From the IMG/VR virus record IMGVR_UViG_3300035145_001618, positions 1 to 39,455 of that record: a DNA stretch of 39,455 nucleotides; one strand, written 5' to 3'. Below the pieces are notes generated by a model. That model worked only from the letters and a program-made list of their open reading frames with translations. It searched no databases and had not been told where the DNA came from. The stretch is from a virus. A program made the translations under genes and the position numbers. Numbering within the stretch: position 1 is the first letter of the stretch; each line of letters opens with the position of its first letter. This document shows, in pieces, positions 3,703-12,286 of the stretch.

Positions 3703-5142
3703 ATGGAAGAAATTTATACACTATTAGCAGGAACATTATACGGTCTAATTGTAGGTCTAGTACCCAGTGCTGGAGCAACAACAGGATTAGTAGCCTTATT
3801 TGGATTTATCAGTTACTTTGGATTTGATCCTTACTTAGGCGTAATATTTTGTATGGCAGTAGTAGCCGCCAGTACAACAGGCGACACATACTCAGGTGTG
3901 CTTTTAGGAATTCCAGGTGCTAACAGTGCCGCGGCAACTATGGTTGACGGATATCCTTTAGCAAAACAAGGCAAAGCCACTTATGCTTTAACGGCCGCAA
4001 TCACAACTTCAACACTTAATGGATTAATTTGGGGTACATTAACCTTTGCTTTATTGCCTTGGTATGTACAACTTATTATGTACTTTGGTATCCCAGAGCT
4101 CTGGGCTTTTGTAATGTTAGCCCTTGCTTGTGTAGGATTTGTTAGTAATAGATATTGGGTTAGAAGTATTATAGCAATCATGATAGGATTGATAATTGGA
4201 CTTATAGGTGTTGACCCAGCAACGAATGTTGATAGATATACACTAGGTTGGGACTACTTGGCAGATGGAGTTCAACTACTTCCTTTTGTTGCTGGTTTGT
4301 TTGCCTTCCCAGAAATACTTGATGGGTGGAAACAAGGTAAGAGTATAGCAACAGTAGGAAAAGACAGTCATGGTAAACAAACATGGCAAGGTATAAAAGA
4401 AGTTTGGCGTTGTAAGTGGGACGCTCTAAGAGGTGGTGCCATAGGAGCATTTATTGGTTTTCTTCCAGGACTAGGTGGTGCTATGGGCGATTGGATGGCT
4501 TATGGTTCAACAGTGGCAACACACCCTAAAGAAAAATTTGGTAACGGTAATATCAGAGGAGTAATAGGACCAGAAGGTGCTAACAATTCACAAAAAGCAA
4601 CTAGTATGATACCAACAGTATTGTTTGGTATACCTGGAGCAAGTTTTGCCGCCGTGTTAATGGCGCTGTTTATGTATTTAGGTTTTGAATTAGGTACACC
4701 GGATCTTGCTTACGATACAAGATTTTTTGACAGTTTAACATTTGGCTTTATGTGGGCGACAGTAATAGTTGGTGTCGTGTGTGTAGCGTTTAACAGATAT
4801 ATTGCTAAGATCTGTTATGTACCATACAAGTATTATTTTCCTTTAATTGTAGCATTTATAGTTTGGGCCTGTGTTCAATATACAGGTGGTTGGGAAGATT
4901 ATGCTATACTAGGTATTTGTTCGGCATTGGGTTATTTTGCTAAGAAGTACAAGTTTAGTCGACCTGCTATGTTGATGGCATTTATTCTAGCAATGAAAGT
5001 TGAGGCCTTGACAATCCAGATGACATCGTTGTATAATATACAAATGTTACTACAAAGACCTTTATTTTTAGTATTATGTTTAGCAATTACTTGTTTATTT
5101 CTTTATGGTATTTCTAGAAAAAATAGATTGGAGTATTCGTAA
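3703..5142 (+). CDS. tctA: TctA-family permease of a tripartite tricarboxylate transporter
   Basis: This is the large membrane subunit of a secondary, binding-protein-dependent carboxylate uptake system in the inner membrane. The 479-aa length and about a dozen hydrophobic segments fit the TctA family (about 500 aa). The family's internal duplication is visible. Half one has GLIVGLVPSAGATTG near residues 14-28 and SGVLLGIPGANSAAATMVDG near 64-83. Half two has GFLPGLGGAMGD near 251-262 and TVLFGIPGASFAAV near 305-318. The first-half glycine motif reads PSAG rather than the usual PGLG. There is no clear Shine-Dalgarno before the ATG. The gene is followed, with a TAATG overlap, by a 2OG oxygenase; the binding-protein gene lies 1.6 kb downstream. 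Substrate cannot be read from sequence. Confidence 0.88.
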   Translation: MEEIYTLLAGTLYGLIVGLVPSAGATTGLVALFGFISYFGFDPYLGVIFCMAVVAASTTGDTYSGVLLGIPGANSAAATMVDGYPLAKQGKATYALTAAITTSTLNGLIWGTLTFALLPWYVQLIMYFGIPELWAFVMLALACVGFVSNRYWVRSIIAIMIGLIIGLIGVDPATNVDRYTLGWDYLADGVQLLPFVAGLFAFPEILDGWKQGKSIATVGKDSHGKQTWQGIKEVWRCKWDALRGGAIGAFIGFLPGLGGAMGDWMAYGSTVATHPKEKFGNGNIRGVIGPEGANNSQKATSMIPTVLFGIPGASFAAVLMALFMYLGFELGTPDLAYDTRFFDSLTFGFMWATVIVGVVCVAFNRYIAKICYVPYKYYFPLIVAFIVWACVQYTGGWEDYAILGICSALGYFAKKYKFSRPAMLMAFILAMKVEALTIQMTSLYNIQMLLQRPLFLVLCLAITCLFLYGISRKNRLEYS

Positions 5143-5885
5143 TGATTAGCAAAGACGACATTGACGCCCTTGCAGAAACCCCAGAGCAAAAAGAATATTG
5201 GGGAGAAAGCCGTTGGGAATTTACAAAAAGCAAAAGCAAATGGCATTTTGACCCTAGTTTAAAAACAAAAGACTATAAAGAAGTTTGTACGTTTGATGGC
5301 GAATGGCATAATGAAATATTTGAATGTTTAGGCAGAGTACAAACAAGTACATGGGCAAACAGAAATCAATTTGACGAACGAATTTACAGTGCTACACAAG
5401 AAGAAAACGATTTAATTAATGCTGGTGCTAAACCTGATATGGAAATTTTTAATAGAGCAAAAGCAGAAGATATTCCAGTGTTTCAACGTATAGCAGAATA
5501 CTTTAGTATGAAAGAAGCCACAATAAAATTTCATAATCAAACTACAGGACAACTTTTAAATTGGCATATTGATAACTTTGCTGGGCGTAAAGAACGTGGT
5601 AACAGTTTTACAGAAATAGAAGCAGATAAAAATCCTAATCTAATGAGGCGTTTTGCTATTATGTTAGACGATTGGAGACATGGACAAGTTTTTCAATTAG
5701 GAAACAGCAACTGGCACCAATGGCGAAAAGGTGAATGTATAACTTGGGAGTGGAGAGATATTCCACACGCTACTTGTAATATGGGCTGGGACGATCGTCC
5801 TATGCTACAAGTTACAGGTTGGACAACAGATACAACCAACGATGTTGTACAATTTGGATCTTTTGGAAACGTAGTTAAAGTATAA
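5142..5885 (+). CDS. 2-oxoglutarate/Fe(II)-dependent oxygenase-like protein
   Basis: The protein carries the facial triad of a double-stranded beta-helix dioxygenase: H142-I-D144 (WHIDN), a distal H209 (DIPHATCN) and R219 (DDRPMLQVTGW), which would bind the 2-oxoglutarate carboxylate. Spacing and flanking aromatic strands fit cupin-fold hydroxylases. The N-terminal 120 residues have no recognisable domain. Substrate is unknown; small metabolites, peptides or glycans are all possible. It sits between tctA and a methyltransferase with TAATG overlaps on both sides, so it is part of the tctA transcription unit. A transporter for carboxylates beside an enzyme consuming 2-oxoglutarate is suggestive but not evidence of a shared pathway. 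Confidence 0.7.
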   Translation: MISKDDIDALAETPEQKEYWGESRWEFTKSKSKWHFDPSLKTKDYKEVCTFDGEWHNEIFECLGRVQTSTWANRNQFDERIYSATQEENDLINAGAKPDMEIFNRAKAEDIPVFQRIAEYFSMKEATIKFHNQTTGQLLNWHIDNFAGRKERGNSFTEIEADKNPNLMRRFAIMLDDWRHGQVFQLGNSNWHQWRKGECITWEWRDIPHATCNMGWDDRPMLQVTGWTTDTTNDVVQFGSFGNVVKV

Positions 5886-6577
5886 TGAACACTAAAATTT
5901 TAGACAGGCTTTGTATTATGTTTAAATCTAGTCCTCAGTTAATGGATAATGATGAGCTATTACAACAAGCAATCAACGGTACCTTTGGTGTTGACATTAA
6001 AGATATTAAGTTTACTAATGTAAAACAGTTAACGGAACTTACTCATTATCACGTGCTTAAAAAATATTTTACTAGTGTTTGGCAACCTATCACAAAAAAG
6101 TACAAGTATAGTGGGTTAAGTATTATAGATGAAGTTAACAACTTAAAGCCTTTAAAAGTTTTAGACTTAGGCTGTGGTTATAACGAATTCAAAGGAAAGA
6201 TCAACAACTTAATTGGTGTAGACCCGTACAATGAAAGAGCAGATATAAACAGCAGTATACTAGAATATAAGTCATCTGAACAATATGATGTTACTATTTG
6301 TTTAGGTAGTATTAATTTTGGTACTGTAGACAAGATATATGCTGAATTAAAAAATGCTGTTAACTTAACAAAGCCCAACGGTTTATTATATTTTAGAGTT
6401 AACCCAGGAGAACAGCACAAGGCTCCTGAAGCACAATGGATAGAGTTTTTTAATTGGACTAATGAGTTTATTATTAATTCTGCTAGTGCTTTAAATTGTA
6501 GTATTTTAACCCTTGAACAAGAAGTTAATGATAGAGGCGTCAGATATTACTTTGTGCTAAGAAAGAACGATAAATAA
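5885..6577 (+). CDS. SAM-dependent methyltransferase, class I
   Basis: A Rossmann-fold methyltransferase with motif I VLDLGCGYNEF around residues 93-103, an acidic post-I strand (LIGVDPYN) and motif IV region YDVTICLGSINFGT. About 90 N-terminal residues precede the core, including KYFTSVWQPITKKYKYSG. The core is clearly related to the methyltransferase at 9368-9964 (shared GCG.NEF, LGS.NFGT and the NPG motif), so the two are paralogs bracketing the transporter/sulfotransferase block. The substrate is not apparent. It is co-translated with the oxygenase upstream (TAATG). Confidence 0.8.
   Translation: MNTKILDRLCIMFKSSPQLMDNDELLQQAINGTFGVDIKDIKFTNVKQLTELTHYHVLKKYFTSVWQPITKKYKYSGLSIIDEVNNLKPLKVLDLGCGYNEFKGKINNLIGVDPYNERADINSSILEYKSSEQYDVTICLGSINFGTVDKIYAELKNAVNLTKPNGLLYFRVNPGEQHKAPEAQWIEFFNWTNEFIINSASALNCSILTLEQEVNDRGVRYYFVLRKNDK
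6569..6576 (+). promoter_or_regulatory. Late-type promoter box GATAAATA
   Basis: GATAAATA matches the T4-family late consensus (TATAAATA, NATAAATA in marine relatives). It overlaps the end of the methyltransferase gene and lies about 150 nt upstream of the tctC-like gene, which begins a new transcription segment after a gap. Three other such boxes in this window also precede genes. An 8-bp match in AT-rich DNA can arise by chance. Confidence 0.35.
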
Positions 6578-6724: not shown

Positions 6725-7777
6725 ATGAGATCAATCAAAAAATTAATCTTAGGTGCTGTAGCATCTGTAATGATTAGTACTTCGGCAATGGCAGACTATA
6801 CGTTTGTAATTCCTCAAAAGCCAGGTGGCGGTACTAGTGTATGGGCAGAAATTATTGCCGGACAACTAGAGCCGTTTTTAGGCGAGAAAATAAAATTACA
6901 ACATTATCCAGGAGCAAGAGATATCCCTGGTTTTAATAAATGGCACAACGAATTACGTGGTGATGACAACGTAGTTATGGTATCACATGGTGGTAATGGT
7001 GTTGCTTTTTTACAAGAAAACGTTGATTATAACTATGCTGATTATGAGTCAATTGGTTTAATGAACTTGAACATTATTGCCGGCAAGGCAAAAGGTGCTG
7101 ATATGGACAACCCATCATTTGCGGCAGGTTCAGGTATGGTACCAGAAGCATTTGCTTTTACTATGTTAATTTGTGGACCAGATAAATCTATTGACGAGTA
7201 CACTGCTTGTTTCAAAGAAAAAGTAACATGGGTAAAAGGTATGTCAGGCGGTGAAAGACGTTTAGCATTTAAACGTGGTGAACTAAATGGCACTAGAGAA
7301 AATCCAGCGGCATATAAAAAACACGTCGAACCAAATGAAAATGCTGAAGTGTGGTTCCATCATGGTATTCTACAAGCAGACGGAAGTCATGCTGATGATC
7401 CAAACTACCCAGGCTTCCAGTTTGAGATTCTTTTCGAACAGCGTTGGGGTGTAGCACCTAGTGGTGATATGTATGATGCTTATAAACTTGTTAAATCATT
7501 CCGTGATGGTTTACAAAAAGCGTTATGGGTTAACAAAGGTAATCCTAATAAAGCAGAATTAGTTAAAGCACTAGAAAAAATGTCAAATGACCCAGATGCT
7601 ATGGCGGCCATTGCCAAAAAAGTAGGAAACTACGATTGGGTTATTGGCGATGCTGGTGATTCTCACAGAGATACACTAATGACTTTTATTACAGAAGATG
7701 CTTTAAAAAATCTTGTTAAGTTTAACACAGAAGCATTAGGATTGTCTAGTGTATACAAAGACAATTTAGTAAAATAA
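6725..7777 (+). CDS. tctC: Periplasmic substrate-binding protein, TctC/Bug family
   Basis: This is the extracytoplasmic receptor that captures a carboxylate and delivers it to TctA/TctB. A textbook signal peptide is present: MRSIKK, a hydrophobic core, then AMA-DY with probable cleavage after residue 23. The mature N-terminus FVIPQKPGGGTSVWAEIIAG matches the TctC start pattern (P-GGGTD..AR..A), with Ser in place of the usual Asp. A PGA motif follows (HYPGARDIPG). At 350 aa it is slightly longer than the usual 320-330. A strong ribosome site (AAAAGGAGAT) precedes the ATG, and a structured 147-nt leader separates it from the upstream methyltransferase. The next gene starts 1 nt after its stop. 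The family call is good but the sequence is divergent, so substrate prediction is not possible. Confidence 0.82.
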   Translation: MRSIKKLILGAVASVMISTSAMADYTFVIPQKPGGGTSVWAEIIAGQLEPFLGEKIKLQHYPGARDIPGFNKWHNELRGDDNVVMVSHGGNGVAFLQENVDYNYADYESIGLMNLNIIAGKAKGADMDNPSFAAGSGMVPEAFAFTMLICGPDKSIDEYTACFKEKVTWVKGMSGGERRLAFKRGELNGTRENPAAYKKHVEPNENAEVWFHHGILQADGSHADDPNYPGFQFEILFEQRWGVAPSGDMYDAYKLVKSFRDGLQKALWVNKGNPNKAELVKALEKMSNDPDAMAAIAKKVGNYDWVIGDAGDSHRDTLMTFITEDALKNLVKFNTEALGLSSVYKDNLVK

Positions 7778-7778
7778 C

Positions 7779-8132
7779 ATGATTGAGTTAGCGATTGCTA
7801 ACGTAACTTATGTACTTTATAGACTAGCGGTTTCCGGACCGCTAGTTAAGTTCTTAAACAAATATCTTTCGTATTATGTTGCTGTTTTTATAATGGCACA
7901 GTTGAGTTTTATATACGATAATTTCATATTTTACAACTATTTTGAAGCAAATGGCTTTTTATGGCTTGACATCATAGTGGCTGATGTGTTATACTCTATA
8001 AGAGTTTTAATGGCATGGTGGGTCATAAAACAGTTATGGAATTGGATTGGCAATTATTGGATAGCAGTATTTTTAGGTGCTGAGTTGACATTTGTTGTTG
8101 ATTACTTTATAATAGGAAGTGTATACACATGA
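7779..8132 (+). CDS. Small integral membrane protein in the TctB position
   Basis: A 117-aa hydrophobic protein with about three to four membrane spans (near residues 5-20, 32-50, 62-85 and 92-112). TctB subunits are poorly conserved four-span proteins of about 140-160 aa encoded beside tctC, so position and topology fit a short TctB. Sequence alone does not prove it. The start is 1 nt after the tctC stop, which implies co-translation, and its own stop overlaps the next gene. Two Trp-rich loops (AWWVIKQLWNWIGNYW) are notable. Alternatives include an unrelated phage membrane protein, but the fused arrangement with tctC favours a transporter subunit. Confidence 0.55.
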   Translation: MIELAIANVTYVLYRLAVSGPLVKFLNKYLSYYVAVFIMAQLSFIYDNFIFYNYFEANGFLWLDIIVADVLYSIRVLMAWWVIKQLWNWIGNYWIAVFLGAELTFVVDYFIIGSVYT

Positions 8133-8728
8133 AAAATTGGATTTTCTTTACAGGAGCACCCGGTAGTCGTTGGAGTGGTGTAAGTCAAACAATTAGAGAT
8201 AATTGGGATAATGTAGACAACACAGATTTAACAGAAGATAAAAAATACACACATCACAAATATAGTGGCCACATTGGAAACTATTACGGGCCTGATATGT
8301 TAAACGGTCAATGGTTAGATAATTCGTTTGGCACTAATCGTATGTGGGAAGAAGAAATTAATAAAAGTTTTCACGGACCAGAGAATAGTTGGAAAGTTAT
8401 TTTAAGTCATCATTTTGCTTATCATTTAGAACAAATTAAAAAACAATATCCAGATAGTAAACTGGTAATGTGCTGGCGCCCAGATTCTGTATGTTATGAC
8501 TGGTGGCACGAAGCAGGTGGCTGGGATATTAGTTACCCAAATTATAGTTGGTATGAAAATAATAATAAAATGTGGGAAGAAATCTGTACACAAAACAGAG
8601 CCATACTTGAATTTGTATACAAGCATAATCTCACTTTTAGAAAACCAGGACGAGAATGGTTTAGAAATACTTGGGGTGTAGATAAAGATTTTATTTTTGA
8701 AAAGGACGTTTGGATCGCCGAATGCTAG
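8129..8728 (+). CDS. P-loop sulfotransferase-like protein
   Basis: The N-terminus IFFTGAPGSRWSGVSQTI resembles the 5'-phosphosulfate-binding loop of PAPS-dependent sulfotransferases. The stretch KLVMCWRPDSVCYDWW (about residues 111-126) resembles the 3'-phosphate-binding strand-helix (R-x-x-x-x followed by polar residues). The protein is small (199 aa against 250-350 for most sulfotransferases) and very rich in Trp. It overlaps the TctB-like gene by 4 nt (ATGA). The role could be sulfation of a glycan or small molecule. A different P-loop transferase or kinase cannot be excluded. Confidence 0.5.
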   Translation: MKNWIFFTGAPGSRWSGVSQTIRDNWDNVDNTDLTEDKKYTHHKYSGHIGNYYGPDMLNGQWLDNSFGTNRMWEEEINKSFHGPENSWKVILSHHFAYHLEQIKKQYPDSKLVMCWRPDSVCYDWWHEAGGWDISYPNYSWYENNNKMWEEICTQNRAILEFVYKHNLTFRKPGREWFRNTWGVDKDFIFEKDVWIAEC

Positions 8729-9357
8729 GATTAACAGTCATATATGACACAGGTGCTGGTGGACAATATTTAAGTGGTGCTATTGCTACTGCTTTAGGTG
8801 ACGCTGTAGCACCTTTTGAGTTTCATAAAAAAGACTTTGATAAAGATGGTGTTAATCTACAAAATAGAAACAGATGGTTTTTCAATACAAAAAATTCAGA
8901 CTATAAAGAAGATAAAGTAAACATTTATGTTTCTGGACTTCATGCTAACCCTTTAGACTTTCATAAAAGCAATGGCCACACATACTTTGATCGAATAATA
9001 AAGGTAAAAATTGACTGTAGTACTCTTTGGGAATTTAGCATGATAAGTTTTAACAAGCATATTAAAAATAATCCAGATACTGACACTGTAAGATATCTTT
9101 CAGATTTTTTTAACTTCAAAAGGCCAACTGTTTGTGATTTTGATTTGACTTTTGAGAGAGACTGTACTGGTTTAGATTTTGACGTATATTTTCCTTATAG
9201 GGCATTTTACGATGTACAAAGACAAAAACAATTCTGTAAAGAATTAGAAAGTAAACTTGACAAATCTGTAGACTATACTATATTCTCTAGTATGTGTAGA
9301 CAGTATGTTAAAGGAAATACTAAACTATATAACGATTATTTGATAAGGGATTTTTAG
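8722..9357 (+). CDS. P-loop-like protein, possible sulfotransferase relative
   Basis: The start is placed at ATG 8722, overlapping the upstream stop by 7 nt; an in-frame TTG lies 12 nt upstream. The N-terminus LTVIYDTGAGGQYLSGAIATAL has a strand-loop-helix with GAGGQ, closely resembling [15 protein letters not shown] in the gene at 34656. The two probably share a fold, although each lacks the GKS/T of a classical Walker A. No other motif is recognised. By neighbour and N-terminal pattern it may belong to the phage sulfotransferase-like group, but the reaction is unknown. Confidence 0.5.
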   Translation: MLGLTVIYDTGAGGQYLSGAIATALGDAVAPFEFHKKDFDKDGVNLQNRNRWFFNTKNSDYKEDKVNIYVSGLHANPLDFHKSNGHTYFDRIIKVKIDCSTLWEFSMISFNKHIKNNPDTDTVRYLSDFFNFKRPTVCDFDLTFERDCTGLDFDVYFPYRAFYDVQRQKQFCKELESKLDKSVDYTIFSSMCRQYVKGNTKLYNDYLIRDF

Positions 9358-9367
9358 TGAATGATTT

Positions 9368-9964
9368 ATGATAGATAGAGACAAACTAAATGATTACTTT
9401 GGAAATCATTGGAAAAGAGATAAGGAGGGTAATAAAGTGGATAAGGCAACAGTAAACAAGTACTTTGGCAATAATTGGAAACCAGACTACAAGCATTATG
9501 AGTATAGTGGTTGGGCGTTGTTGGACAAAGTAGGACCTACAGATACAGTAATTGACATTGGGTGTGGGTTTAATGAATTTAAAGAAAAGTTAGGTGACCG
9601 ACTATATGGGTTTGACCCTGCTAACGATAAAGCAGACGAGGTAGTTGGTATTGAAGAATTCGAAGCAAATGGTAAACAATGGGATATAGCATTTGTTTTG
9701 GGTAGTTTGAACTTTGGAACAGCAGAAGATGTTGAACCACAAGTTGAAAAAGCAGTCAGTCTTGTAAAACCAGGCGGTATGCTGTATTGGAGACAAAATC
9801 CAGGTTTAGGCGACCATCCTTGGAAGGGAGTAGAAGAAATTAAGTTCTTTCCGTGGACATTTGACCTCAATTACGAATGGGCTGAAAAATACGGCTGTGA
9901 TGTACTTGAGTGTAAGTGGGACGCCAAAAGCGACAGAATATACTCGGAATGGAAAAAAAGATAG
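9368..9964 (+). CDS. SAM-dependent methyltransferase with duplicated N-terminus
   Basis: The core has motif I TVIDIGCGFNEF, post-I LYGFDPAND and WDIAFVLGSLNFGTAED, followed by GGMLYWRQNPG. It is a paralog of the 5885-6577 methyltransferase. The N-terminus is odd: LNDYFGNHWKRD is repeated 23 residues later as VNKYFGNNWKPD. Between them the DNA AAGGAGGG (9422-9429) forms a strong Shine-Dalgarno seven bases before an in-frame GTG at 9437, whereas the first ATG (9368) has no good ribosome site. The main product may therefore start at 9437 (175 aa, a single repeat copy), with 9368 giving a longer form. Substrate unknown. Confidence 0.78.
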   Translation: MIDRDKLNDYFGNHWKRDKEGNKVDKATVNKYFGNNWKPDYKHYEYSGWALLDKVGPTDTVIDIGCGFNEFKEKLGDRLYGFDPANDKADEVVGIEEFEANGKQWDIAFVLGSLNFGTAEDVEPQVEKAVSLVKPGGMLYWRQNPGLGDHPWKGVEEIKFFPWTFDLNYEWAEKYGCDVLECKWDAKSDRIYSEWKKR

Positions 9965-11215: not shown

Positions 11216-12286
11216 ATGGTAAAACCATTCGATGTAAGTAAATTTAGAAAAGATATAACAAAGTCAATTGATGGATTATCAATTGGTTTTAATGATCCAA
11301 CAGATTGGATCAGCACAGGAAATTATTGCCTTAATTATTTGATTAGTGGCGATTTCCACAAAGGTGTTCCGCTAGGTAAAGTAACTGTATTTGCTGGAGA
11401 ATCAGGAGCAGGTAAAAGTTATTTCGCGGCAGGTAACATTGTAAAACACGCTCAGGAGCAAGGTATTTTTGTTGTACTAATTGACTCAGAAAATGCTTTA
11501 GATGAAAAATGGCTACAGGCATTAAATGTTAGTACTGATCCTGACAAGTTATTAAAGTTATCAATGAGTATGATTGATGACGTTGCTTTAACTATTAGTA
11601 AGTTTATGAAAGATTACAAAGACATGGAGCCTGAAGAAAGGCCAAAAGTGTTGTTTGTAATTGATTCACTAGGTATGTTGTTAACTCCAACAGATGTAGA
11701 TCAGTTTGATAAAGGTGACATGAAAGGTGACATGGGTAGAAAACCTAAGGCACTTACAGCCCTTGTTCGTAATACTGTTAACATGATTGGTGCTTATAAC
11801 GTAGGATTAGTAGCAACAAATCACACTTATGCTTCACAAGATATGTTTGACCCAGATGACAAAATTAGTGGCGGTCAAGGTTTCATTTATGCTTCGAGTA
11901 TTGTTGTAGCAATGAAGAAACTAAAACTAAAAGAAGATGAAGCAGGTAACAAAATCAGTGAAGTACGTGGTATTAGAGCTGGTTGTAAAGTTATGAAAAC
12001 ACGTTACTCTAAACCTTTTGAAGCAGTACAAGTAAAAATTCCTTATGATAGAGGAATGGATCCACATAGTGGTTTGCTTGATATGTTTGAAAAACAAGGT
12101 ATTATTGTAAAAGACGGAAACAAACTAAAGTATACTCCTTCTTCAGGAGAAGAAATTAAAGAATTCCGTAAAGGATGGACTGGTGAAAAACTAGACATTG
12201 TAATGAAAGATATACTTTCTGGAGGTACACTTCTTCACGATGATAATATAAGTAGTGAAGTAGAAGAACAATCAGAAGGTGAATAA
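11216..12286 (+). CDS. uvsX: UvsX recombinase (RecA-like)
   Basis: This is the strand-exchange ATPase of recombination-dependent replication. Walker A GESGAGKS is at residues 61-68, with a Walker B strand KVLFVIDSLGMLL about 85 residues later. VATNHTYASQDMFDPDDKISGGQG corresponds to the RecA L2/DNA-binding region. The 356-aa length is close to T4 UvsX (391). The ribosome site AAGGAAGG fits the chosen ATG. The tail is acidic (SSEVEEQSEGE). A small acidic gene and uvsY follow directly, forming a recombination operon. Confidence 0.93.
   Translation: MVKPFDVSKFRKDITKSIDGLSIGFNDPTDWISTGNYCLNYLISGDFHKGVPLGKVTVFAGESGAGKSYFAAGNIVKHAQEQGIFVVLIDSENALDEKWLQALNVSTDPDKLLKLSMSMIDDVALTISKFMKDYKDMEPEERPKVLFVIDSLGMLLTPTDVDQFDKGDMKGDMGRKPKALTALVRNTVNMIGAYNVGLVATNHTYASQDMFDPDDKISGGQGFIYASSIVVAMKKLKLKEDEAGNKISEVRGIRAGCKVMKTRYSKPFEAVQVKIPYDRGMDPHSGLLDMFEKQGIIVKDGNKLKYTPSSGEEIKEFRKGWTGEKLDIVMKDILSGGTLLHDDNISSEVEEQSEGE

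Follow-up and report, generated by a model that had tools for sequence, protein, structure and literature searches.

Duplicated start region and two putative in-frame initiation sites in a marine phage methyltransferase-like gene

Where does translation begin in a gene whose 5' end contains the start region twice? The question is raised by an open reading frame at 9368..9964 of the viral DNA analysed here, the IMG/VR record IMGVR_UViG_3300035145_001618, whose full 39,455 nucleotides are referred to as the window; this frame and all its features discussed below lie on the plus strand. An initial annotation had proposed that the gene may make two products, or that its 5' end had been duplicated from a start region and the annotated start is wrong. 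The two products and the duplication have largely withstood comparison with related loci, as parts of one story, whereas the wrong annotation has not. Because the start region is duplicated, the gene appears to possess two in-frame initiation regions, and the comparative evidence makes it rather probable that both are used, the internal one strongly for a short form and the upstream one more weakly for a long form.

The predicted enzyme and its repeated N-terminal motif

The long form, starting at ATG 9368, comprises 198 residues, and the short form, starting at GTG 9437 (9437..9964), comprises 175 and has the N-terminus typical of the family alignment. The AlphaFold2 model of the 198-residue product (pLDDT 83.7) is Rossmann-like and matches solved SAM-dependent methyltransferases, including SAM/SAH-bound enzymes, the best Foldseek match being 3h2b (E 1.1e-09, TM about 0.58). 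Motif I, of the D-x-G-x-G type, reads DIGCG: D63, G65, C66 and G67 are invariant in 39 sequences and the second residue varies. Pfam matches of this protein are sub-threshold (14.4 bits for Methyltransf_12 against a cut-off of 30, which is a detection threshold and not a property of class I methyltransferases); Methyltransf_23 is matched by 23 of the 39 family members at E up to 0.01. The product is best described as class I SAM-dependent methyltransferase-like, a putative enzyme that shares the DIGCG motif, the Rossmann-like model and the structural matches with Methyltransf_23/12 and TehB-like class I enzymes and differs from them in falling under the curated Pfam cut-offs. A tblastn search of the protein against 50,697 annotated phage records found no relative; a paralogue in the window and one distant relative gave weak matches, solely to one unannotated marine virus. 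A scan of bacterial and archaeal genomes revealed two distant relatives, both from metagenome-assembled genomes, where they may lie on contigs of viral origin.

The frame opens with 23 codons that are extra with respect to the family and missing from single-copy relatives (copy 1, 9368..9436). They contain the first motif, LNDYFGNHWKRD (9386..9421), which recurs as VNKYFGNNWKPD (9452..9487), the conserved N-terminal motif of the family, in which F33, W37 and P39 are invariant or nearly so in 39 sequences. The two motifs are identical at 8 of 12 residues and 27 of 36 bases. The repeat described initially is therefore real, with an offset of 22 residues (66 nt) instead of the 23 given. The best 12-residue self-match of the protein scores 52 and the best among 200 shuffles 39, so that chance is ruled out as its source; an assembly artefact is ruled out by the occurrence of the two-copy layout in independent IMG/VR contigs with different neighbours. 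In the AlphaFold2 model, the second motif lies in a predicted helix (residues 26-36), and copy 1 forms a similar helix of low confidence (residues 4-13). When 557 ORFs were scanned for start duplication, the methyltransferase gene was the only convincing case, the next-best match being a ferredoxin-like internal repeat; no general tendency of these phages towards such duplication was found.

Family distribution and origin of the duplication

Two IMG/VR scans yielded about 80 loci. Outside the clade of the window, all relatives with 5' ends that were read carry one motif copy each; the start of single-copy relatives lies 2-9 codons before the Y-F motif in nearly all cases, and a few relatives, together with the paralogue in the window, have a longer N-terminus of other sequence. 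The comparison of homologs suggested at the outset thus reveals a single-copy family, not one with both repeats throughout. Two copies are found in the window, L018, L019, L020, L021, L022/L023/L027, L026, L010 and L028, and a pattern scan for a second copy detected no further contigs. A tree built from the body alone (residue 57 onwards) unites seven of the eight distinct two-copy sequences in a single group (100/98) and places L028 outside it, among single-copy relatives. In residues 24-56, L028 shares 79-85% identity with the two-copy clade, compared with 55-64% for others, and it looks like a recombinant. At the level of the whole L028 gene (1912-2493), the N-terminal part is near the two-copy clade up to about residue 56, and the body is equally near single-copy relatives. 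The distribution fits a single origin of the two copies followed by recombination of 5' ends; two separate origins of the layout are possible.

The nature of the change is best seen in syntenic pairs. L019 and L031 share an upstream gene with 85% identity along 563 bp that extend through the start codon (TAAAGGTAAAATAATGGATAG); directly after this codon, L019 has 66 extra bp. Similarly, L022 and L028 each share an upstream gene with L032 (82-83% over about 500 bp), with 66 extra bp in L022 and 54 in L028. The two-copy layout is accordingly marked by an in-frame insertion of 54/66 bp at the gene start, and both sets of loci indicate that copy 1 begins, by position, at the resident start and that copy 2 begins, relative to the body, at the family start. 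A single-copy family and syntenic relatives without the 54/66 bp bear out the proposed duplication from a start region. The suspicion that the annotated start is wrong finds no support: it is the resident start from the neighbouring context, and copy 1 looks translated and constrained (see below).

The two-copy gene is found behind at least five upstream contexts, namely those of the window, L019, L020/L010, L021/L024 and L022/L026/L028. In the window, the upstream neighbour (8710..9357, plus strand), which is not part of the duplication and differs between relatives, begins within the 3' end of the gene at 8129-8728 and ends 10 nt before ATG 9368; in L020 and L010, a gene ending like 8129-8728 runs straight into the methyltransferase gene. 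The 8710 gene turned up in only three viral loci, so that it looks like a rare swapped-in gene. Since copy 1 spans only 18-23 codons, tandem duplication within one gene and misaligned recombination between alleles are indistinguishable. The purine-rich SD (TGGAAGA in L032) could pair with the Trp-Lys codons TGGAAA, a possible origin of the duplication within a stretch too short for a test.

Internal and upstream initiation sites

As initially reported, a Shine-Dalgarno (SD) sequence, AAGGAGGG (9422..9429), lies 7 nt before GTG 9437 (9437..9439). It contains the single AAGGAGG of the window, both strands counted, and its duplex with the anti-SD has an energy of -12.4 kcal/mol, whereas the best of the window's 47 gene starts reaches -9.5; the internal SD is equalled at about 0.02% of the window positions sampled. 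Among 399 in-frame internal start-like codons, nine of which reach -6, it is by far the strongest. As the start codon itself, seven distinct sequences have GTG and two (L010, L028) have ATG. GTG accounts for 8.8% of the Val codons in the window, but its conservation alone is modest evidence, because the seven GTG sequences form one clade, in which 7 of the 11 other conserved Val codons likewise show no variation. Across the seven GTG sequences the energies of the SD range from -7.8 to -12.4, and it stays strong while the residues encoded over it vary (DKEGN, DERGN, DQGGN, DSEGN, DQEGN). The summed energy of -74.1 compares with a mean of -41.2 in synonymous resamplings, none of which reached it in 2000 trials, a number that overstates independence, because the sequences are related. 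In L010 and L028, the internal SD is moderate (-5.0 and -5.1). The internal site is predicted to be less structured than the upstream site in all eight sequences having both, marginally so in L026. In the near-identical contigs L024/L025, the first part of copy 1 is deleted and the upstream start is gone; TAG replaces the TGG of the others and is followed by no start codon before the GTG, the sole possible start nearby, and AGGAGGG-GTG is kept in front of an intact body. Taken together, the comparisons speak for initiation at the internal start.

The upstream start is less conspicuous. The SD energy of ATG 9368 is -3.1, rank 30 of the 47 gene starts in the window, and the early remark that this codon has no good ribosome site is therefore fair, though the site is unremarkable; weak ribosome sites are common where genes overlap. 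Weak upstream SDs (-0.9 to -3.4) are found in the window, L019, L020 and L010, and L022/L026 start upstream at a TTG with a strong SD (GGAGG, -9.3). In L020 and L010, the upstream ATG overlaps the stop codon of the preceding gene as ATGGATAG, a layout described in PMC6728339 as supporting termination-reinitiation.

Copy 1 contains no stop codon in any of the eight distinct sequences that retain it, and its length differences are multiples of three. Its pN/pS is 0.39 (95% 0.21-0.77), whereas copy 2 has 0.12 and the body 0.14 (codon-aligned counts; L028 has a one-codon gap); between the window and L020, differences in copy 1 are mostly synonymous (ratio 0.06). With about 72 substitutions in copy 1, counted on a spanning tree, absence of stops by chance would have a P of about 0.01-0.03 if the region were neutral. 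Open and constrained in eight sequences, copy 1 is nevertheless dispensable in L024/L025. These data suggest, but do not prove, that copy 1 is translated under relaxed protein-level constraint; as it took over its 5' codons from resident alleles, part of the constraint may be older than the duplication.

The observations can be accommodated in the following manner: the aligned loci show a family with one N-terminal motif and one start, in front of which a single clade has acquired an in-frame copy of 54/66 bp. Ribosomes would then start mainly at the internal GTG, whose SD is strong and open, giving the typical 175-residue enzyme, and less often at the upstream codon, probably through coupling to the preceding gene. 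The resulting long form would carry 18-23 extra N-terminal residues repeating the motif and may be tolerated or mildly useful. The internal site may keep the enzyme expressed when recombination swaps the upstream neighbour.

Alternatively, the internal GTG alone may be used, copy 1 being a relic of the 5' end of an old allele that persists as an untranslated or decaying leader. The intact body of L024/L025 behind a lost upstream start is what such a relic would predict, as are the weak SDs and the more structured upstream site in the window and its relatives and the clearly weaker constraint on copy 1 than on copy 2. A decaying leader would hardly remain free of stops in the other eight distinct sequences, differ in length by threes and keep a pN/pS below 1, nor would it be expected to possess the strong SD at the TTG of L022/L026, and we regard this alternative as unlikely, albeit the most serious one. 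Still less probable is the converse, that only the upstream start is used, the protein simply being longer in this clade and the internal SD a by-product of Lys-Glu-Gly codons. Some protein constraint on copy 1 is in line with it, and SD-like stretches do arise in genes by chance, as the nine internal codons reaching -6 illustrate. Yet the strongest SD of the window, at good spacing, would have to stand by accident beside an infrequent Val codon for which two relatives have ATG, its strength exceeds the synonymous expectation, and L024/L025 cannot use the upstream start. An artefact, be it an assembly or sequencing error or a chance repeat, deserves practically no credence in view of the independent contigs, the shuffles and the one convincing case in 557 ORFs. 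Use of both starts, unequally, is thus the reading we prefer. An extension of it, that the duplicated start region is a portable, self-sufficient translation module, is speculative and on present evidence doubtful. If true, in a stretch whose upstream neighbours recombination exchanges again and again, an enzyme with its own strong start within that of the resident gene could land on any related start and stay expressed, and mosaic phages could keep genes translated after shuffling.

Relation to known dual starts and genomic context

Dual in-frame starts are well documented in phages; the route via a duplicated start region is less usual, and a limited literature search found no description of it, which is weak evidence of absence. 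The holin/antiholin gene S of phage lambda (S105/S107) makes two N-terminal forms from closely spaced in-frame starts; these are two codons apart, lack a start-region duplication and serve lysis timing, whereas the methyltransferase gene encodes a putative enzyme. In lysA of mycobacteriophage Ms6 (Lysin384/Lysin241), an in-frame internal SD, TGGAGGT, precedes an internal GTG by 6 nt, the stop codon of the previous gene overlaps with the first start, and two products have been demonstrated (PMC3111421). An internal in-frame start with its own SD is common to lysA and the methyltransferase gene. In lysA, initiation at the internal start, codon 144, cuts away part of the protein, whereas the short methyltransferase form would be a complete, family-type enzyme; a start-region duplication, present in the methyltransferase gene, does not figure in the description of lysA cited here. 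The endolysin genes of CTP1L (PMC4777826) and LysIME-EF1 (PMC7098653) likewise each produce a full-length and an N-terminally shortened form. The short form of CTP1L, as described there, is the cell-wall binding domain only and forms complexes with the full-length protein; in contrast, both putative methyltransferase forms carry the whole predicted catalytic domain. Genes with a single start, with a duplicated start and with a duplicated start of which the first is lost make up a clean natural series among the related loci, illustrating how a phage gene can acquire a second start and how a start can shift within a gene. The start of the longest ORF differs here from the family start, and the starts assigned in related phages therefore need checking.

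The two-copy clade belongs to marine viruses of bacteria. A UvsX-like recombinase in the window (11216-12286) is closest (61-70% identity) to those of jumbo phages of about 350-490 kb, such as Phosso, Atu_ph07 and GAP32. A close methyltransferase relative lies on a 204-kb contig, and the window therefore probably derives, as a fragment, from the genome of a marine jumbo phage. It also carries a tripartite tricarboxylate transporter set (3703-5142, 6725-7777 and 7779-8132): TctA is recognized by PF01970 (E 1.8e-98), and the other two members, one a TctC-like binding protein and one a small membrane protein, were assigned by eye only. TctA-like ORFs adjoin the methyltransferase gene in L046, L055, L073, L091 and L092. 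On SUP05 virus contigs, tctA and a 2OG-Fe(II) oxygenase have been listed as putative auxiliary genes (reviewed in PMC6359870). The paralogue in the window (5885-6577) has one motif copy and 39% identity to the 9368-9964 product; it groups with L097 (53% over the body), which comes from a contig assigned by binning to Candidatus Pelagibacter. An ORF of that contig, beginning MYILFTGAPGSKW, resembles the 8129-8728 product of the window, and the contig may therefore itself be viral.
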